Shown piece by piece: positions 24,790-59,499 of a stretch of DNA of 64,000 nt. The position numbers and the translations under genes are program-made. Numbering within the stretch: position 1 is the first letter of the stretch; every line of letters begins with the position of its first letter. The stretch is from positions 1 to 64,000 of the forward strand of contig CALAJK010000085.1 of NCBI GenBank assembly GCA_937922795.1, written 5' to 3'. The notes beneath the pieces are model-generated. The model was not told the DNA's origin. It did no database searches and saw only the letters and a list, made by a program, of their open reading frames with translations. The stretch comes from an uncultured Anaerolineae bacterium. GTDB taxonomy: Bacteria > Chloroflexota > Anaerolineae > Aggregatilineales > Phototrophicaceae.

Positions 24790-24950
24790 CACTCATCAAT
24801 TGAGCTTGATCGCAGAGCTGCAGCGTGTAAGATTGTGTTATAGTGATACACCTGTAAACAGGCAGTCAGGCGGCGGCGCTGAAATTGCTGATCGGATTCT
24901 GAACGCCGCAGACCTTAATTTCGATGAATTTTCGGGTTAAAGAGGCTGCT

Positions 24951-26657
24951 ATGATCCAAAGCGTCACGAGATGGTGGTTGGTTTTTTTGACCGCAGCGCT
25001 CGCCATCTACTTTGTCCTTGCCTCACACAACCTGCTGTTACCGGGAGTCTACTATGACGAGTTGCTGCAAGTGCTGCCGGCCATGTCTGCCGCGGGCTAT
25101 GACGTGGGGGACGAATTCTATCAAGTGCCGGGCTCCATCTTGCAGTTTGGAAATACCCGCGTGCCGCTGATGATCATGCCCTATACTGGGCCTTTTGAGG
25201 CGTTAATTTTCATACCTCTGTTTGCAGTCTTTCCGCCGACGGTCATCACGGTTCGCCTGACCTTCATAGTCCTTGGAATGGCGACGATCGCGCTGACGTT
25301 TCTTGCAACGCGCAAAGCGTTTGGCGCTAGAGTCGCGATTATCGCTGGTCTGCTGTTGGCGACGGACGCTGGGTACATCTTCTACTCGCGCGCTGATATC
25401 GGCCCGATCAACACGATGATGATTATTAAGATGTTTATGCTCCTCGCACTAACCCTCTGGTGGCATTCAGGCAAACAGCGCTGGTTTTATATCGGTGCGT
25501 TTCTGGCTGGACTTGGGGTTTACGACAAAGCCAACTTCGTCTGGCTGTTAATAGCTGGTGGGCTAGTTATATTGGTTTTCGGATACAGAGAGTTGATGGA
25601 GCGCTTGCGCCATCGCTGGAGAATGCTAGTCGTTGGCGCGCTGTGCTTTACGTTGGGTGCAGCACCTTTTATAGGATATGTGCTCTTAACGGGTGGCGGC
25701 CCGTTTAAATCATTGTTCTCATCTTTCGAAAAGACAAGTTTAGGAGTAAATAATCTCAATATGATGGAGAACTTAGATACACGCGCAGCGTCCTTATGGG
25801 AGTTGCTAAACGGTTATCTAGGTCAGAGAGAATACACTTCTGGTTTCAGTGACCAAGGAATCGTTTCAGAGCGATGGTTTGCAATCCAACCCTATGTTCT
25901 GCTGTTGGCCGTAGCGGCGCCGGTGCTGCTCTATCTGCGCCGGCGCGTATCCATGAGCCATCTAAGACTCATCCTCGGTTTAGCCGCCTTGATCGTTGTG
26001 ATACTGTTCCTGAGCATTTTTACACCTACCAACTTTAGCAATAACCATTTACTCGTGATCTATCCATTCCCTCATATCCTGATCGCCTACGCTGCTGTTC
26101 TGATCTGGAATACCTTTGCTTCTCCCACCCAGAACATCCCAACGCTGGTCACGCGCGATGCTGTTAGCAAAACATCAAACATTGTACGTGGCGCGGTTCT
26201 ACTCACTTTAATGCTCACGCTCATCGGTAATTTTCTTGCCACAGTTCGTGTTCACCAGGTATTGGAGACTACAGGCGGGACGGGCATGTGGTCGAATGCG
26301 ATTTACGAACTCAACGATTATTTGGAAGCTCAGAACCGTGACGTTGTCTGCATGGATTGGGGTTTGTGTTACAATTTGCTCTTTCTTTCACAAGGACGTC
26401 TGAATACCACTGACCGGTGGAAACAATTCCTTTATCCTAGTAGCGACCTTTCACAAATGGAGACGCTGCTGCAAGAGGATAAACTCTTCGTCTTCCACAG
26501 CCCTACCTACACTGGCGTTTTAGTCATAACAAGCGAAGACTATCCCCGACAAACTTTCTTCGAGACCACTAGAAAATTAAATGGCCAGGTGAGACAGCTA
26601 AAAGTTATTGAACAGGGTAACGGCGAACCTGTATTCGAAGTCTATGAAGTTCAGTGA
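24951..26657 (+). CDS. GT39-like (dolichyl-phosphate mannosyltransferase type) membrane glycosyltransferase
   Basis: ATG 24951 has AGAGG six bases upstream; 568 residues. It is a GT-C enzyme with about ten membrane helices. The exterior catalytic loop shows YYDELLQ after the first helix (acidic D-E pair), then FYSRADIGPINTMM; GLGVYDKANFVWLLI is typical of Chloroflexota members of PMT_2. The C-terminal 130 residues are a soluble exterior domain with two cysteines (CMDWGLCYN). It uses a polyprenyl-phosphate sugar to glycosylate lipid or protein. Its base composition is visibly AT-richer than the genes around it, which suggests acquisition or a different history. Confidence 0.82.
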   Translation: MIQSVTRWWLVFLTAALAIYFVLASHNLLLPGVYYDELLQVLPAMSAAGYDVGDEFYQVPGSILQFGNTRVPLMIMPYTGPFEALIFIPLFAVFPPTVITVRLTFIVLGMATIALTFLATRKAFGARVAIIAGLLLATDAGYIFYSRADIGPINTMMIIKMFMLLALTLWWHSGKQRWFYIGAFLAGLGVYDKANFVWLLIAGGLVILVFGYRELMERLRHRWRMLVVGALCFTLGAAPFIGYVLLTGGGPFKSLFSSFEKTSLGVNNLNMMENLDTRAASLWELLNGYLGQREYTSGFSDQGIVSERWFAIQPYVLLLAVAAPVLLYLRRRVSMSHLRLILGLAALIVVILFLSIFTPTNFSNNHLLVIYPFPHILIAYAAVLIWNTFASPTQNIPTLVTRDAVSKTSNIVRGAVLLTLMLTLIGNFLATVRVHQVLETTGGTGMWSNAIYELNDYLEAQNRDVVCMDWGLCYNLLFLSQGRLNTTDRWKQFLYPSSDLSQMETLLQEDKLFVFHSPTYTGVLVITSEDYPRQTFFETTRKLNGQVRQLKVIEQGNGEPVFEVYEVQ

Positions 26658-48888: not shown

Positions 48889-49335
48889 CATTGTGGTGAT
48901 TACCCTTCACTGTCAACCTGGCCAGGGCGGCAGCGCGCGCGCCCTGCGCCTCTATTGTACCGGATTCTCGAAGTGCTCGTGGGCGGCGGGCGCATGTGAA
49001 GTTGATGAGCGCCGCGCCCAGGGCGAATGCTCACTTCTAAATTTACACACTGGTTCGTATGAATTGCGTATGTAGCGCCTCAGCAGGCATTGAGTCGCTG
49101 TCGAGCTGGCGCATGGGACCGGCGGAGTCCTTCATCGTCCATGCCGGATGAACCCATCCGCCCCATCGGCATGGTGGGCGTTTAGGCCGGGTATCCCGCC
49201 CGAACTGTCCATGTGACGTTCGTCCAGCAAGGTAGGAACGTTGTTGTAAACCGGTTCTGCTATCGGCTATACTCAATCGCGTGCCCGGATCATCAAGATA
49301 GGTGTGTAGGTTTTACTTTTGAGGAGAAAAGTGTG
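48889..49335. other. 447-base intergenic region between clpC and the acetylesterase gene
   Basis: No gene is seen. The left part holds the clpC leader with a minus-strand TACAAT box (48959-48954); a matching -35 is not found. The right part contains TTGTAA (49244-49249), 18 bp, TATACT (49268-49273). In between, short palindromes (about 49160-49200) are seen, but no RNA gene is recognised. Confidence 0.6.
49244..49273 (+). promoter_or_regulatory. Promoter of the acetylesterase-like gene
   Basis: TTGTAA (49244-49249), 18-bp spacer, TATACT (49268-49273). Confidence 0.55.
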
Positions 49336-50472
49336 ATGCAACGCTATTTTTGGGTTCTACTAGCCATCCTTGTGACGGCGCTGGCGACAGGTTCAGCGGC
49401 GGCGCAGGCCGGCTTGCCAGCGCTGGCTGACCTCAAACCTGGGGAATGGAACGAACTGCTGCCCGGCGGCGAAACGACCTGCGCCTACGGCGGCGAGTAT
49501 CGCTTCTACGTGCGCCCGGCAGCCGTCCCTAGCGATCAACTGCTGGTGTTCTTCCAGGGCGGCGGCGCTTGCTGGGATGCGACCAACTGCTCGCCCGCCT
49601 TTCAGGGGCCGGACGGCAACCCGATCTTCAAGAGCGTGGTAGTCCCCGGCGAGAGCGCGTCTTACAACCAGGGCATCTTCGACTTCGCCAACCCTGAGAA
49701 TCCCTTCGCCGACTACCATGTCGTCTACGTGCCCTACTGTTCCGCCGACGTGCACACCGGCAACGCCGTTCATGAGTACGACGCGGGCAATGTGCAGTAC
49801 ACCATCCGCCACAAGGGCTACGTCAACGCCACGGCTGCTCTGGACTGGATGTACGCCAACTACCCTGATCCCGCCAGCGTGTTCGTCTCTGGGTGCAGCG
49901 CCGGGGCATACGGTTCCATCTTCCACGCGCCCAACATCATGGCGCAGTACGACGCCGCCCGGGTGACGCAGTTCGCTGACGCCGGCGTGGGCGTGACCCC
50001 GCGCGGTTGGGAAGGGCTCAACAGCTGGAATTTCTACGACAATCTCTCTAAGGCAGTGCCAGACTACGCTAGCATCGATCCGGCTAAGTTCCGCATCAAC
50101 CAGCTCTATCAGGGCGCGGCGCGCGCCTTCCCCAACCAGACGTTCGCCCAGTACACGACTTACCTCGACCAGGTGCAGATCGGCTTCTTCTTCCTGCAAG
50201 GCGGCGGGGAGACGCCGCAAGCGGCAGGCGGCAATTGGCTGACTGGTATGCGCGCCAACCTCACTGGGTTGAACGGCAGCCTGCCCAACTTCCGCTCCTA
50301 CATGGCTTGGGGCAATTCGCACTGTGTCACCGATAGACCCGATTTCTACACTTACCAGGTGAACGGCGTGCGCCTGCGCGACTGGGTGGCTGACTTGGCC
50401 GCCGGCCAGGAGGTGCGGACGGTCAACTGCACTGAATGCACAGCGCCTGAACTGTACACGCCGGCGCAGTAA
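49336..50472 (+). CDS. Secreted pectin-acetylesterase-family hydrolase
   Basis: ATG 49336 is preferred because GAGGAG lies 9 bases upstream; 378 residues. Signal peptide (LLAILVTALATGSAAAQA). Serine-hydrolase features: GGGACWD at 75-81, nucleophile S188 in VSGCSAGAYGS, and the later histidine in WGNSHCVTD. This is the pectinacetylesterase/notum-like family; substrates are acetylated sugars or lipid-linked proteins. Several cysteines may form disulfides. A clear intrinsic terminator follows. Confidence 0.88.
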   Translation: MQRYFWVLLAILVTALATGSAAAQAGLPALADLKPGEWNELLPGGETTCAYGGEYRFYVRPAAVPSDQLLVFFQGGGACWDATNCSPAFQGPDGNPIFKSVVVPGESASYNQGIFDFANPENPFADYHVVYVPYCSADVHTGNAVHEYDAGNVQYTIRHKGYVNATAALDWMYANYPDPASVFVSGCSAGAYGSIFHAPNIMAQYDAARVTQFADAGVGVTPRGWEGLNSWNFYDNLSKAVPDYASIDPAKFRINQLYQGAARAFPNQTFAQYTTYLDQVQIGFFFLQGGGETPQAAGGNWLTGMRANLTGLNGSLPNFRSYMAWGNSHCVTDRPDFYTYQVNGVRLRDWVADLAAGQEVRTVNCTECTAPELYTPAQ

Positions 50473-52551: not shown

Positions 52552-52617
52552 ATCCGCGTTCTCCTGGGCGTGATGGGCATGAGCATAACGCGCCGCCGTT
52601 CACGCGGCTAGGACGCA

Positions 52618-52626
52618 TGGTATACT
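52618..52626 (+). promoter_or_regulatory. Extended -10 promoter of the GT-C operon
   Basis: TGGTATACT (52618-52626). Transcription would start about 30 bases before ATG 52664; it should drive the four-gene operon. Confidence 0.6.
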
Positions 52627-52663: not shown

Positions 52664-53671
52664 ATGATTGTGTTCTCCCGAGATCGTTTTACATTTCGGG
52701 CGGTCTGGTTCGTCCGGCTGGCGTTCGGGCTGCTGCTGCTGTGGGGGTCGGAAGTGCTGCTGTGGACTGACCCGCCCGGCCGCCCGCCGCTGGAGTGGCC
52801 GCTGCTGGCCGCCGGCTATGGCCTGCTGGCGGCGCTGCTGCTCGACCTGGCCGCCCGCTTCCGGGTGGGCGACTTGTTCAGCCCCCTGCTGCTGGGCGGC
52901 GTCTACAGCTTAGGCGCGTCGCTGGCCGTCAATCCGGCCTCGATGTACAGCGACCTGCCGCTGACGCTACTGACGCGGGTGCTGGGCGCGCACGCGCTGA
53001 TGGGCGTCGAGATGTTCGGCCTGCTGCTGGCGCTGGCGGGCGGCGGCCGGGGCGGGCGCTGGCTGCTCGTCGGGGCGGCCATCATCGGCGTCTCATGGGG
53101 CGTGTGGGTGCGCTGGTTCCCGATGCTCAACGAGCCGAGCTACGGCGCGGTCGAACTGCCGGCGGCGCTGATCTGGGCGGCGGCTGGGCTGGCGGCAGCG
53201 CTGGCCGCGCTGTGGGCGGCTGGGCGGCGGGGGACGGCGCTGATCGTGGACGATCTGCGCTTGAGCCGTTCCGGCTGGGGCGTCGTCCTGCTGGGGCTGC
53301 TGGGGCTGGCCGCCGTGCGTGCCCTGCGCCAGGAACTGCCGCCCGCCGCCCTGCCGATCGCCGCGCCGCTGCTGGCGCTGCTGGCGGTCATCTTCTGGTT
53401 TCGCGGGCGCAGCGCTGGCCGCGCCCTGCTCGACGAGCGGGTTCCGCCCCGCCTGCCGCCGGCCCTCACGTTGGGGGCGGCGCTGGCGCTGTTCTTCGCG
53501 CTGGCGGCCGTCGGTTATCACCTGCCGCTGCTGGAGATCGGCCCGTTCAACCTGCTGACGCTCATCGGCGTGGCCTTCACTGCCTACGGGCTGACCTGGC
53601 TGCCGACTGTATCGCTGGTGCTGGGCGCGCGCGCCTACCTGCGCCAGGCGCAGCGCGCGCGGGAGGTATGA
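52664..53671 (+). CDS. Polytopic membrane protein of unknown family
   Basis: A 335-residue protein with about ten hydrophobic stretches (FRAVWFVRLAFGLLLLWG, LEWPLLAAGYGLLAALLL and so on). I see no catalytic motif. Charged loops are short, and a WVRWFPMLNEPSYG loop lies near 145-158. The stop codon shares its bases with the start of the first GT-C gene, so it is the first gene of that operon; an accessory, polymerase-like or lipid-carrier role in glycan assembly is possible but unproven. It has no clear ribosome-binding site. Confidence 0.72.
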   Translation: MIVFSRDRFTFRAVWFVRLAFGLLLLWGSEVLLWTDPPGRPPLEWPLLAAGYGLLAALLLDLAARFRVGDLFSPLLLGGVYSLGASLAVNPASMYSDLPLTLLTRVLGAHALMGVEMFGLLLALAGGGRGGRWLLVGAAIIGVSWGVWVRWFPMLNEPSYGAVELPAALIWAAAGLAAALAALWAAGRRGTALIVDDLRLSRSGWGVVLLGLLGLAAVRALRQELPPAALPIAAPLLALLAVIFWFRGRSAGRALLDERVPPRLPPALTLGAALALFFALAAVGYHLPLLEIGPFNLLTLIGVAFTAYGLTWLPTVSLVLGARAYLRQAQRAREV

Positions 53672-55536
53672 TGCCGGACGCCGCTTCCCCTCGACGCGGC
53701 GGCTGGTGGCTGGGCGTCGTGCCGCTGCTGCTGCTCATGACCGCCCTGGGCGCGCGCGGTCTGCAGACCGACGCCTTCTGGCTGGACGAGACCTGGTCGC
53801 TGTACAGCGCCGGCGCGGCCCACTTCGGCCCGCTGTCGCCAGCGGAAATCTGGACGCGCACCGCCACCGAGGATTTCGGCGGCGTAGGCTACCACCTCAT
53901 CCTCAGCGCCTGGGGGTCGCTGGCCGGCTGGACGCCGTTCGCGCTGCGGCTGTCGTCGCTGCTGTTCGGGCTGCTGGCCGCCGCCTGGATCTTCCGGCTG
54001 GGGCGGACGCTGGCCTCGCCGGCTGCCGGGCTGGCGGCGGCGGTCGCCTTCGGCGCGGGCGCGTTCACCGTCTACTTCCTGCACGAACTGCGCACGTTCA
54101 CGCTGTCCGTCCTGCTCATCGCGCTGACGCTGTGGGCTTACTGGCGCGCCGCTTGGTCGCGGCGGCCGGGGCTGGGCGCGCCGGCTGCGCTGGTCGCTGG
54201 GACGGCCGGGCTGCTGTACACCCATTACTACTTGGCGCTCATCCTGCTGGCTATCGGCCTGTACCATCTGCTGTTCGCCCCGCGCGGCCGCTGCTGGCTG
54301 CGGACGGCCGGGCTGCTGGCAGCCGGCGGGCTGCTGTTCCTGCCGTGGACGGGCGTAGTGCTGGCCGCCCTGCGGCAGTTCACGGCCAACGAAGCGGCCG
54401 GCAGCCCCGAACCGGCGCTGACCGCCGTCCAGATCGTGGAGCGGACGGCCGTCCTCTTCAGCAGCGGCATGCCGTGGCTGCTGGGCGCGGCACTGCTGCT
54501 GGCCAGCCTGAACGCGCGGGCGGGACGGCGGGCGGCCGTCGCCGCCGGCCTGTGGACGCTGGCCGGCCTGGCTGTCTTGATCGTCGTCAACGACCGCACC
54601 GCGCTGGTGAAGCCGGGGCGCGAGCGCTACCTGCTGCTGGTGTGGCCGCCGCTGGCGCTGCTGGCGGGCATCGGGCTGGCGCGGCTGCGCGGCCGGGGCG
54701 GCCGGGCGGCGTTCGCCATCCTGCTGGCGGCCTGGGCGTTCAACGGCGCGGCGGCGGCGCTGGACGGCGCGCTGACCCGCGATACCGACGGCGCGCAGGC
54801 CTTCCCGTGGGACGCGCTGGCGCGGACGCTGGCCGCCGAGGCCGAACCGGGCGACGCCGTCGCGGTCGAGCTGACCGTCTACAACTGGGTGCTGGAGCTG
54901 AAGCCGGCCGAGTACTACCTTCACGGCCTGCCGGCGCGGTTCACGGTCTTGCAGGCGCTGCCAGAAGCCGACTTCGCCGACCGCGTCCGGGCGCTCGCAG
55001 ACGGCGCGCCGCAGATCTTCCTGGGGTTAGACAAGCGTCTGCCGCCGACGCCGCGCTGGGCCGCGTTCCAGGCGGCGCTGGCCGGCGAGTACGCGCCGTG
55101 TGAGACGCTCCTCGACCTGCCGCGGCTGCGCCTGGACCGGCTGCTGAAGCTGCCCACGGCGGCCTTCGCCCCGGAACGCGCTTACCCTCGCTTCGGCGAG
55201 GGCATCCGGCTGACCTACAGCCGCGTGACAGCAGACGTCGAATTGTCAGCGCTGCTGGTTTGGTGGGCCGCGCCGGACGTGCCGGCGAACGTCTACTCGG
55301 TCGGGCTGCATCTGGTGGACGCGGCGGACAACCTGGTCGCGCAGGCGGACTACGGCCTGCCGTCCGAAGCCGCCGCCTGCCGGCTGGCGCGGCTGACGCT
55401 GGACGGCCTGCCGCCGGGCAGCTACCGCCTGCTGGCGATGGTGTACGACTGGCAGACCGGCGCGCGCCTGCCGGGGCTGTCCGCCGCTGGCGAGGCGGGC
55501 GACCGGCTGCTGCTGGCCGAGGTGCGGCTGAAATGA
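53671..55536 (+). CDS. GT-C membrane glycosyltransferase, paralogue 1
   Basis: 621 residues from ATG 53671 (GGGAGG four bases upstream); ATG 53668 is one codon longer. GT39/GT83-like: the first exterior loop reads WLDETWSLYSAGAAHFGP, with the D-E pair that takes part in catalysis, and HELRTFT marks the second loop. GLLYTHYYLALILLAIGLYH is shared with the other two paralogues. About twelve helices fill residues 10-370. The C-terminal 130 residues form a beta-sandwich domain outside the membrane (VYSVGLHLVDAADNLVAQAD, LDGLPPGSYRLLAMVYDWQT). It transfers a sugar from a polyprenyl-phosphate donor; acceptor unknown. Confidence 0.88.
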   Translation: MPDAASPRRGGWWLGVVPLLLLMTALGARGLQTDAFWLDETWSLYSAGAAHFGPLSPAEIWTRTATEDFGGVGYHLILSAWGSLAGWTPFALRLSSLLFGLLAAAWIFRLGRTLASPAAGLAAAVAFGAGAFTVYFLHELRTFTLSVLLIALTLWAYWRAAWSRRPGLGAPAALVAGTAGLLYTHYYLALILLAIGLYHLLFAPRGRCWLRTAGLLAAGGLLFLPWTGVVLAALRQFTANEAAGSPEPALTAVQIVERTAVLFSSGMPWLLGAALLLASLNARAGRRAAVAAGLWTLAGLAVLIVVNDRTALVKPGRERYLLLVWPPLALLAGIGLARLRGRGGRAAFAILLAAWAFNGAAAALDGALTRDTDGAQAFPWDALARTLAAEAEPGDAVAVELTVYNWVLELKPAEYYLHGLPARFTVLQALPEADFADRVRALADGAPQIFLGLDKRLPPTPRWAAFQAALAGEYAPCETLLDLPRLRLDRLLKLPTAAFAPERAYPRFGEGIRLTYSRVTADVELSALLVWWAAPDVPANVYSVGLHLVDAADNLVAQADYGLPSEAAACRLARLTLDGLPPGSYRLLAMVYDWQTGARLPGLSAAGEAGDRLLLAEVRLK

Positions 55537-55651
55537 GACGAGCGGCAGGACAGTTGGGAATGGCCGCGCGGTGGAGACTTGAGTAAGCTAGGGCTGCGCG
55601 GGCGCTGGACGCGCCGATCACCGCGTTGGACAGGGGCTCAAGGCGGACTTG

Positions 55652-57550
55652 ATGGCGTCAAATCACAAATACCGGTGGGCATGGTTGATCCCGGCACTGC
55701 TGGTGTCGGCCTGGTTGGGCGCGCGCGGCCTGAACGCCGACGCCATCTGGTACGATGAGTGGGCATCGCTCTACATGGCGGGCAGCCCGCCCTACGGCCC
55801 GGCGTCGCCCGATGAGATCCTGGCGCGTTCATCAACGCAGCCGTGGCAGCCCCCGGCCTACTATCTGCTGCTGGCGCTGTGGGGCGGCCTGGCCGGCTGG
55901 GATGTGTATGCGCTGCGCGCGCTGTCGCTGCTGATGGGGCTGCTGGCGGTGGCCTGGACTTACCGACTGGGATACGATCTGGCGCGGGGCAGTCAGCCGG
56001 CAGGCGGCGAAGTGGATCCGGCGCTGGTCGGGATCGGCGCGGCGGTCGCTTTAGGGCTGTCAGCCTTCTTCATCCACTACTACCACGAGCTGCGCACCTA
56101 CAGCTATCACGCCCTGCTGGCGGTCATCGCCGTCTGGGCGTACTGGCATTGGCTCGCCCGCCGCCGCAGCTGGCGCGCCGACCTCATCGTGCTGGCGGCG
56201 CTGGCCGGCCTGCTGTACAGCCACTACTTCTCGCTGCTCATCATCGGCGCGCTCGGCCTGTATCATCTGCTGTTCGCGCCGAAAACCCGCGGCTGGTGGC
56301 GCGTGCCGGCGCTCATGGCCGCCGCCGGCGCGCTGTTCCTGCCGTGGTTCAGCGTGGCGCTGACGGCCCCGCCCGAAGCGTCGATGGCCGATCCCGTGCT
56401 GCGCGAGGCGGCGCTGGCGCCGAACCAGATCGTTGAACGGCTGTTGTTCGCGTTCAGCAACGGCGGCGTCGTCCTGCTCATCGTGCTGGCGGCGGCGGCC
56501 TGGCGCAGCCGCGGCGCGCGGACGGTCGCGTTCTGGCTGACCACGGCGGTCGGCGCCGCCATCGTCGGCAATCTGGCGGTGCGCGTCCTGTCCGAGCTGC
56601 GGTATCTGATCGGGGTGTGGCCGCTGCTGGCGCTGCTGGTCGGGTTCGGGACGGCTGAGCTGGCGCGGAGGCGCGTCAGCCCGGCGCTGCTGCTGGTCGC
56701 CTGGGGCGGCGTCGGCGTCTGGGCCAGCCTGAACGCTGCCCCGCTGATGATCGCGTTCCACGCGCCCGACAGCGACACGTTCAACCATTCCTATGCCGGG
56801 GCGTTCCGCGAGCTGCCCTGGCGCGAGCTGCGGCGGACGATCCTGGCGCGGGCGCAGCCGGGCGACGCGCTGGCCTTTCACCGGCCTGATGCCGTCTGGG
56901 CGGTGCAGGGCGTCTTCGAATACTATTTCCACGACGCGCCGGTGCGGTCCACGCTGCTGGAATCGCTGCCGGGGCGCGACCAGGATGATGAGTATCTGCC
57001 GGGCGCGCAGCAGTTCATCGCCGCAGCGCCGCGCGTCTGGCTGGCCGTGGACAAGACGCTGCCGGCCACTTTTCGTCTGCGCGAGTTCCAGCGGGCGCTG
57101 GCCACCGACTACGTCGTCTGCGAGGATGTTTTCGACCGGCCCAATATGCGCTTATCGCTGTACACCCGGCGGCCGTCGACGCCGCCCCCTATCACGTTCG
57201 GCGCTGGCATCGGCCTGTACCCGCTGGAGCCGCTGGCCGTCTCGGCTGACCGCGACCTCACGGTGCGCCTGGGCTGGCTGGTCGCGCCCGATGTGCCGCC
57301 GGCGACTTATTCGGCGGCGCTGCACGTGGTCGCCCAGTCCGGCGAATTGGTCAGCCAGACCGATTATGGCGCGCCGGCCAGCGGGTTCGCCTGTGTGGCG
57401 TCCGCCGTCTCGCTGCGGGAACTGCCGCCAGGCCGCTACACGCTGCTGGCGGCGGTCTACGACTGGCGCAGCAGCGAACGCCTGCCGGGGCTGTCCGCCG
57501 CCGGCGAGGCGGGCGACCGGCTGCCGATTGGAGAGTTCGACTTACGATGA
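55652..57550 (+). CDS. GT-C membrane glycosyltransferase, paralogue 2
   Basis: 632 residues from ATG 55652 (AAGGCGG upstream). WYDEWASLYMAGSPPYGP is the catalytic loop; HELRTYS and GLLYSHYFSLLIIGALGLYH follow. The C-terminal sandwich (about 500-632) shows TYSAALHVVAQSGELVSQTD and LPPGRYTLLAAVYDWRSS, clearly the same domain as in the neighbours. It follows paralogue 1 after 115 bases and overlaps paralogue 3 by four bases (ATGA). Same general role as its neighbours. Confidence 0.88.
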   Translation: MASNHKYRWAWLIPALLVSAWLGARGLNADAIWYDEWASLYMAGSPPYGPASPDEILARSSTQPWQPPAYYLLLALWGGLAGWDVYALRALSLLMGLLAVAWTYRLGYDLARGSQPAGGEVDPALVGIGAAVALGLSAFFIHYYHELRTYSYHALLAVIAVWAYWHWLARRRSWRADLIVLAALAGLLYSHYFSLLIIGALGLYHLLFAPKTRGWWRVPALMAAAGALFLPWFSVALTAPPEASMADPVLREAALAPNQIVERLLFAFSNGGVVLLIVLAAAAWRSRGARTVAFWLTTAVGAAIVGNLAVRVLSELRYLIGVWPLLALLVGFGTAELARRRVSPALLLVAWGGVGVWASLNAAPLMIAFHAPDSDTFNHSYAGAFRELPWRELRRTILARAQPGDALAFHRPDAVWAVQGVFEYYFHDAPVRSTLLESLPGRDQDDEYLPGAQQFIAAAPRVWLAVDKTLPATFRLREFQRALATDYVVCEDVFDRPNMRLSLYTRRPSTPPPITFGAGIGLYPLEPLAVSADRDLTVRLGWLVAPDVPPATYSAALHVVAQSGELVSQTDYGAPASGFACVASAVSLRELPPGRYTLLAAVYDWRSSERLPGLSAAGEAGDRLPIGEFDLR

Positions 57551-59499
57551 CACCGGCCAAACCGCGCACGATAGCCGCGGCGATGCTCGCGCTGACGCTG
57601 CTCACTTTCTGGCTGGGGGCGCGCAGCCTGCAAGCCCGGACGATCTGGTATGACGAATGGTGGACGATCTTCTACGCCGGCAGCGCGCCGCAGTACGGCC
57701 CGGCGCCGCTGGCGGAAACCTGGCGGCGGGTGGCAGACACCGACCATGAACTCAACCCGCCCGGTTACTATCTGGCGATCAACGTCTGGAGCCGGCTCGT
57801 GGGCGGCAGCCCGTACACCCTGAGGGCCTGGTCGCTGCTGCTGGGCATGCTGACGCTGGCGTTCGTCTACCGGGCTGGGCGCGACCTGCTGTCCCCCTGG
57901 GCTGGCGTCGGCGCGGCGCTCGCCCTAGGGCTGTCGTCATTTTTCGTTGAGTATCTGTACGAAGGCCGCGCCTACATGCAGATGGCGCTGTGCACGGCGG
58001 CGGTCTTTTGGGCTTACTGGCGGCTGACGACCGGGCGGCGTATCACAATCGGGCTGGGCGGGCTGTTCGTGGTCAGCCTGGCGGGTCTGCTCTACACGCA
58101 CTACATGGCGATATTCGTCGCGGCCGCGCTCGGCCTGTACCATCTGCTGTTCGCTAGCAAAGATGCGCGCTGGTGGGGCATCGCGCTGCTGGCCGGGCTG
58201 GCGCTGGCGGCCTTCCTGCCCTGGGTCAGCGTCGCGCTCAAGGCGTTCAACCAGGTCACGAACGATCCGGCGCGCGACGCCTTCGCCGCCGACGCGTTCT
58301 CGCTCCTCAGGCGGCTGATCGATCGCTTCAGCAACGGCAGCGCCGCGCTGCTGGCGATCTTCGCGTGGTATGCGCTGCCCGGAAGGCGCGTCGTCTGGTT
58401 CACGCTGATCGTCGCCTTGAGCCTCATCCTGGCGATCAACGCGGTTTTTCGCTTCGTCACTGATGTCCACTACCTGCTGGCGCTGTGGCCGCTGCTGGCG
58501 CTGGTCGTCGGCCTGGGGGCGGCGCGCATGGCTGCTGATCGCCTGCGCCCCTGGGTTCCGCTCAGCGTGTGGGTCATCGCGGGGCTCATCACCAGCCTCA
58601 GCCTGGAGCACCTGCTCAGACCGAAAAACGAGACGTTCGCCCTATATCTCCCCTGGGATGTGGTGGCGCGGCAGATGGCGCGGCTGGCGCAGCCCGGCGA
58701 TGCGTTGATCTTCTTCCTGCCCGAACCAGTCCCCAACTGGCTGCACCAGCCCGTGTCCGACTACTATCTGGAGGGGCTGCCAGTCCGCCGCGCCGTGGTG
58801 GATTCGCCGGCCGCCAAACCGGTTGACAAATATCGCCAGGAAGCGGAAACCTTCGTGGATGATGCGCCCCGCGTCTGGATCGCGCGGCAGCCGAATGATC
58901 CCCCGCTGCCGGTGGTGGACGCTGAGTTTCAACGGGTATTCGCCGAGCGCCGCTATGTCGAATGCGGCAGCCCGTGGGATACGCCCGATCTGCGTTTGAC
59001 GCTGTATGTGCGGGCGCTGGAGCGAGCGGCGGCGACCTTCGGCGAGGCGATCACGGCGTATCTGCCGCTCGACCCGCTGCCGCCCGTCTCGTCTGGGCGT
59101 TTGTCCATCGCGCTGGGCTGGGAAGTGGGCGAAACGACGCCGCCGAACACCTATTCCGTGGGTGTGCACCTGGATGACCCCGACGGCCAACTGGTACGGC
59201 AGTACGATTATGGGCTGCCGCCCCAGGGTTTCACGTGCCGGTCAGCCGACATCCCGCTGGACGGCCTGCCGCCGGGCGATTACCGGCTGCTGGTGACGGT
59301 CTACAACTGGCAGACCGGGGAACGCCTGCCCGGCACAGCGCTGGCCTCCGGCCAGACGGGCGACCGCCCGCCGCTGGCGACGGTGCGGGTGGGGGAGGTG
59401 AACGTTGAAGGTGGCAGCGCCGAACCATCGTCTGCTGAATGTTTCATCGATGATGCAGCCAACCAAGGGGCACGGCTCATCTGCCCGGATTCGGACTGA
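57547..59499 (+). CDS. GT-C membrane glycosyltransferase, paralogue 3
   Basis: 650 residues. WYDEWWTIFYAGSAPQYGP forms the catalytic loop; YEGRAYM replaces HELRT[FY]; GLLYTHYMAIFVAAALGLYH is shared. The sandwich domain (about 500-625) has TYSVGVHLDDPDGQLVRQYD and LPPGDYRLLVTVYNWQTGE. A unique C-terminal extension follows with two cysteines (ECFIDD, LICPDSD). ATG overlaps the previous stop; GGAGAG lies upstream. The GT-C operon ends here. Confidence 0.88.
   Translation: MTPAKPRTIAAAMLALTLLTFWLGARSLQARTIWYDEWWTIFYAGSAPQYGPAPLAETWRRVADTDHELNPPGYYLAINVWSRLVGGSPYTLRAWSLLLGMLTLAFVYRAGRDLLSPWAGVGAALALGLSSFFVEYLYEGRAYMQMALCTAAVFWAYWRLTTGRRITIGLGGLFVVSLAGLLYTHYMAIFVAAALGLYHLLFASKDARWWGIALLAGLALAAFLPWVSVALKAFNQVTNDPARDAFAADAFSLLRRLIDRFSNGSAALLAIFAWYALPGRRVVWFTLIVALSLILAINAVFRFVTDVHYLLALWPLLALVVGLGAARMAADRLRPWVPLSVWVIAGLITSLSLEHLLRPKNETFALYLPWDVVARQMARLAQPGDALIFFLPEPVPNWLHQPVSDYYLEGLPVRRAVVDSPAAKPVDKYRQEAETFVDDAPRVWIARQPNDPPLPVVDAEFQRVFAERRYVECGSPWDTPDLRLTLYVRALERAAATFGEAITAYLPLDPLPPVSSGRLSIALGWEVGETTPPNTYSVGVHLDDPDGQLVRQYDYGLPPQGFTCRSADIPLDGLPPGDYRLLVTVYNWQTGERLPGTALASGQTGDRPPLATVRVGEVNVEGGSAEPSSAECFIDDAANQGARLICPDSD

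Follow-up and report, generated by a model that had tools for sequence, protein, structure and literature searches.

The window analysed here, a stretch of 64,000 nucleotides from an uncultured Anaerolineae bacterium (GCA_937922795.1, contig CALAJK010000085.1), contains three consecutive genes, GT1, GT2 and GT3, whose products are probably extracytoplasmic transferases of the ArnT/PMT type with an acceptor-positioning C-terminal tail; in this probable explanation the three genes represent three old sublineages, with the polytopic protein gene that precedes them as a mere neighbour.

Gene layout and the polytopic protein

All four genes described in an earlier note on this DNA were found at the positions given there, on the + strand between 52664 and 59499. 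The features referred to below are as follows.

52599..52626, + strand: sigma-70-like site, consensus match only, shortly upstream of the first gene
52664..53671, + strand: polytopic protein gene, 335 aa
53668..55536, + strand: GT1, GT-C (PMT_2) transferase-like with tail, 622 aa, PF13231 at 30.4 bits
55177..55533, + strand: beta-sandwich tail of GT1, from alignments and model by homology
55397..55521, + strand: 3' end of GT1, gene-conversion candidate
55649..57550, + strand: GT2, GT-C transferase-like with tail, 633 aa, structure modelled
57182..57547, + strand: beta-sandwich tail of GT2, modelled alone
57411..57535, + strand: 3' end of GT2, counterpart of 55397-55521
57547..59499, + strand: GT3, GT-C (PMT_2) transferase-like with tail, 650 aa, PF13231 at 35.1 bits
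59023..59412, + strand: beta-sandwich tail of GT3, from alignments

The start of GT1 overlaps the end of the polytopic gene by 4 nt (ATGA), GT3 overlaps GT2 by 4 nt, and a gap of 112 nt separates the GT1 stop from the GT2 start, for which the start codon is TTG or ATG. Upstream of the cluster, a secreted pectinacetylesterase-like (PAE) protein is encoded at 49213-50472 (60 bits).

The polytopic protein has about 9-10 hydrophobic segments and gave no match against Pfam and NCBIfam or in a scan of viral contigs. Its homologues (L057-L075) and the window copy have invariant residues in common, among them WLP close to the C-terminus. The ATGA overlap with GT1, and a promoter-like site upstream of the first gene with none before the other three (2 sigma-70-like sites in the consensus scan of the region vs 0.5 expected), would be consistent with an operon that works as one unit, the polytopic protein acting as a flippase or other partner of the transferases. 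Against this, the polytopic gene was single-copy in 50 of 61 genomes, as an order-level conserved gene, including genomes with no strong transferase match (G012, G019, G023, G031), and in the inspected relatives its neighbours were an MFS gene, an M17 peptidase or a methyltransferase. One functional unit of four genes was judged very unlikely. In all relatives examined the polytopic gene and the transferases were on different contigs, and the four-gene order was not kept in any genome examined. The operon proposed in the earlier note thus stands as far as the genes are contiguous here, but the polytopic gene adjoins these transferases in no relative examined. Its location in relatives led to its rejection as a conserved partner and gave no support to a part in the transferase system; it is most likely a neighbour of the transferases.

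GT-C assignment of the membrane core

Matches of the TRANSFERASES to PMT_2 (PF13231) were read against the curated cut-off of 26.1 bits, with GT1 and GT3 above it and GT2 below. GT2 gave nothing above cut-off in Pfam, with a sub-threshold TMEM260-like match only; at E<=1, PMT_2 was matched by 25 of the 29 aligned members of the GT1-GT3 family. The loops and tail core reported as common to the three enzymes were all found exactly as written: the W[LY]DE loop as WLDE, WYDE and WYDE at residues 38, 34 and 34 of GT1, GT2 and GT3, the second loop, ExR[TA][YF], as HELRTF, HELRTY and YEGRAY at residues 139, 146 and 138, and the LPPGxYxLL core as LPPGSYRLL, LPPGRYTLL and LPPGDYRLL at residues 581, 592 and 574. 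In pairwise comparison the membrane parts of the three were 37-45% identical and the tails 43-50%.

The acidic DE pair was present in the first extracytoplasmic loop (EL1) of GT1, GT2 and GT3, and among the 108 family members D was kept in 104 and E in 105. The R of the ExR motif was nearly invariant (106/108), and a later RY pair was kept at R in 102 and at Y in 101 of the 108. The acidic EL1 residues of known enzymes are D55/E56 in ArnT and D77/E78 in Pmt2, and the motif map of the GT-C/PMT clan gives the corresponding positions roles in catalysis and in the binding of sugar and phosphate (PMC7801869).

An AlphaFold model of GT2 built from 29 sequences (pLDDT 90.3, pTM 0.87) had three parts: residues 1-370 form the GT-C membrane part, about 390-505 an alpha/beta domain and about 511-632 a beta-sandwich. 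Its nearest folds were ArnT (Z 28.4), Pmt4 (27.3) and OST (27.1). When the PDB was searched by sequence, neither GT3 nor profiles found a significant relative. Family match, conserved DE and predicted fold together bear out the proposal of GT-C enzymes with a catalytic DE in EL1, and GT1-GT3 are most likely ArnT/PMT-type (PMT_2) GT-C glycosyltransferases integral to the membrane.

The model was compared with known systems. The structures of ArnT from Cupriavidus metallidurans (5ezm/5f15), the GT-C lipid A aminoarabinose transferase, matched residues 5-507 of the predicted GT2 fold (4.5 A over 430 residues) and share the DE in EL1; identity was 12%, however, the sandwich tail of GT2 lies beyond the matched range, and a like fold does not by itself imply aminoarabinose transfer to lipid A. 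Pmt1, Pmt2, Pmt4 and bacterial GT39 enzymes resemble the present proteins in the PMT_2 match (GT1 and GT3), the core (Z 26-27) and the DE in EL1, but the GT2 match spans residues 2-380 only and the soluble domains differ. In GT39 enzymes the acceptor is Ser/Thr of a protein. The oligosaccharyltransferases AglB, PglB and STT3 likewise combine a GT-C core with a C-terminal soluble region (Z 20-27), but at about 10-13% identity, with an alignment that stops before the tail and a sequence match to PMT_2, not STT3.

The variants HELRTF, HELRTY and YEGRAY had been taken as a sign of different donors or acceptors. HELRTF and YEGRAY each occurred once among the 108 members, the nearest relatives of GT3 have HEMRAY and HEARAY at the YEGRAY position, and E and R of the motif were kept in all three copies. 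HELRTF and YEGRAY were thus ruled out as specificity marks, and specificity is not readable from these loop motifs; the overall sequence divergence of GT1-GT3 makes different specificities plausible.

The beta-sandwich tail

Modelled in isolation, the GT2 tail gave a confident Ig/FnIII-like beta-sandwich (pLDDT 95.8), so that the sandwich which the earlier note had read from the letters was borne out by confident structure models. Among the best Foldseek matches were a porphyran-binding CBM and the carbohydrate-binding domain of Wzt. The C-terminal domain of Wzt (PF14524; 6o14, 8dky) resembles the tail in fold (Foldseek 1.2e-4, Z 8.8, 107 residues), but its carrier protein differs and a weak Wzt_C sequence match (E 0.18) was obtained in one family member only. 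The best sequence matches of the tail were to TcfC E-set (6e-4) and FlgD_ig (0.0065), neither of which is informative on sugar binding. The mycobacterial arabinosyltransferases EmbC and AftD are GT-C enzymes with C-terminal beta-rich domains, and the C-terminal CBM of EmbC is required for acceptor binding (PMC3044687); GT1-GT3 are smaller and the structural match is lower (Z 16-18), and the tails are compared as precedent, not as homologues.

Sugar binding by the tail is suggested by these modelled folds. The competing reading, of a structural or protein-protein Ig-like spacer that binds no sugar, was judged somewhat less likely than not. It is favoured by a flat fold landscape (Z values 8.5-10.2) with mostly generic sandwiches among the matches, such as GbpA, GH2 and RbmA domains, together with non-carbohydrate proteins (RhoGDI, alpha2-macroglobulin, Integrator), by the absence of the tail from some GT-C family members, and by its presence on multi-pass proteins of other kinds and, in one case, on a single-TM protein. 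Against a mere spacer are four residues of the tail that are highly conserved across the family (Q, D, Y and G) and the carbohydrate-binding modules among the best Foldseek matches.

In this genome the tail was found on long multi-pass GT-C-like proteins. It was not limited to unrelated contexts, since its carriers are almost all multi-pass GT-C-like membrane proteins; the single-TM exception is a 320-aa protein encoded between two transferase genes (L147:6122-7081, G100:C214). Beyond its tail, GT3 has about 30 additional residues with two cysteines (59400-59499), which the aligned relatives are without.

Origin of the three copies

In the phylogeny each copy fell in its own clade, with its closest relatives at separate loci elsewhere. 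The nearest relative of GT1 was G009:C12 (61-62% identity), that of GT2 G002:C558 (55%) and that of GT3 G004:C11 (46%). The GT1 clade in the tree comprised G009, G014, G005 and G007 (support 97/94) plus one further genome (100/99), its membership as listed being G009, G014, G005, G006 and G007; the GT2 clade comprised G003 and G002, then G036 (99/93, 99/94), and the GT3 clade G004, G020, G109, G002 and G010 (100/100).

Origin by recent tandem duplication of one transferase, followed by divergence, is a process for which the family offers examples, as three copies in G024, seven in G034, three in G100 and pairs in G032 are local duplicates that each form one clade. For the copies in the window it was considered extremely improbable: their nearest relatives are each in other genomes, and under the model used the AU test rejected GT1-GT3 as one clade (p 5e-41, at a cost of 420 log-likelihood units) and GT2+GT3 as one clade (p 1e-71). 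The origin by local duplication implied in the earlier note was therefore abandoned. GT1-GT3 most likely come from three sublineages whose separation is older than that of the genomes of the genus, and are now side by side.

Near their 3' ends, GT1 and GT2 are more alike than elsewhere. DNA identity was 58% over the whole genes and 80% between 55397-55521 and 57411-57535; 55441-55510 of GT1 and 57455-57524 of GT2 contain a near-identical 47-nt patch (RLPGLSAAGEAGDRL) with about 46 of 47 bases identical. The peptide of the patch was not shared by relatives in the clades of GT1 and GT2. Because the patch lies far above the gene average and the clade relatives are without the peptide, it is likely to reflect local gene conversion, and it inflates the likeness of the GT1 and GT2 tails.

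Gene neighbourhoods in relatives

Many contigs of relatives end near family members, and the absence of neighbours there is often uninformative. The GT1 orthologues of five congeners were at a shared, different locus, beside PAD_porph, CN_hydrolase or GDSL genes, with some flanks ending at contig ends. The PAD_porph gene of the present genome was found at C83, beside asparagine synthase and with no transferase there; the other flank gene of the congeners' GT1 locus was not found in this genome. In G020:C514, from another genus, a GT2-clade gene is followed directly by a GT3-clade gene, with a contig end on the upstream side, and this order was seen beyond the window in that one genome. Because of the same direct order in G020, the GT2-GT3 pair may be old.

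An ancestral array of GT1-GT2-GT3 or longer, broken up in relatives and serving one stepwise glycan pathway, would account for the G020 pair, for an unplaced family member directly upstream of the GT2-clade gene in G036:C57 and for the 4-nt overlap of GT2 and GT3. It fits poorly with the separate locus of GT1 in the five congeners and with the GT2- and GT3-clade genes of G002 and the GT3-clade genes of G004 and G010, which stand alone, and was rated unlikely. The separate old sublineages remain the preferred account of the three copies.

In other genera, arrays with 2-7 family members occur repeatedly. Those placed on trees (G024, G034, G100 and the G032 pairs) were lineage-specific duplicates, unlike the three genes of the window. 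Six or seven tailed transferases form one apparently conserved locus in four genomes of one family (L142, L143, L144, L145), adjoining a gene of 670-680 aa (Fe-S/CCG in L142) and one of 197-202 aa (GNAT acetyltransferase in L142). The direct neighbour of the family member in L089:4632-8542 (G041:C295) encodes GHMP-kinase and nucleotidyltransferase domains, which hints at an activated-sugar pathway.

In the present genome a fourth close copy was found at C94, as well as more distant copies. The fourth copy (L021:7262-11944, G000:C94) has as neighbours a PfkB-type kinase, HldE-like by eye, and a protein that fuses GT9 heptosyltransferase-type with WecG-type domains. Far from the cluster, the window encodes a further PMT_2 protein at 24924-26657 (577 aa, 41.9 bits). 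The transferase family was detected in 40 of 61 relatives at E<=1e-20, and the tail profile in 17 of 151 genomes across the phylum at E<=1e-8, weakly outside the order. No description of this array or tail in Chloroflexota was found in the literature covered, most subscription journals being outside that coverage.

Proposed function and significance

Since the conserved residues match the motif positions of PMC7801869 and the fold is predicted to be GT-C, we infer transfer of sugar from a polyprenyl-phosphate sugar donor. The DE pair of EL1 would position and activate the acceptor. The sugar and phosphate of the donor would be held by conserved ExR[x][YF] and H residues in other loops and by the RY of the loop that follows about TM9. 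Transfer would take place outside the cytoplasmic membrane; a cell-surface glycan, a lipid or a secreted protein would receive the sugar, with the C-terminal alpha/beta and beta-sandwich domains positioning the glycan or protein acceptor. Activity, donor, acceptor and tail role of GT1-GT3 are here deduced from sequence and models.

Within the cluster no donor synthase or acceptor gene was found, and a GtrA-type protein, looked for as a pathway marker, was not found in this genome (MAG 85% complete); other donor routes exist. Deletion of one bacterial GT39 abolished protein glycosylation (PMC6151902). The role in surface glycosylation put forward in the earlier note is plausible. A stepwise pathway by GT1-GT3 is possible, and conserved gene order gives it no support. 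A speculative and improbable extension is that a large, hitherto undescribed branch of tailed ArnT-like enzymes in Aggregatilineales-type Chloroflexota, organised time and again in arrays with as many as seven genes, makes a highly variable surface glycan at one sugar per enzyme, with the tail reading the chain as it grows.

GT1-GT3 are ordinary members of a large, known, widespread and lineage-expanded class, here in uncultured bacteria with little-known surface chemistry. The genome contains 38 PMT_2 loci in 3.6 Mb (32 above cut-off), which, with the tailed arrays of 2-7 genes in related genera, suggests that these bacteria invest heavily in extracytoplasmic glycosylation. Should the tail bind acceptor glycans, the family would be a compact bacterial system in which to study how GT-C enzymes recognise their acceptors.
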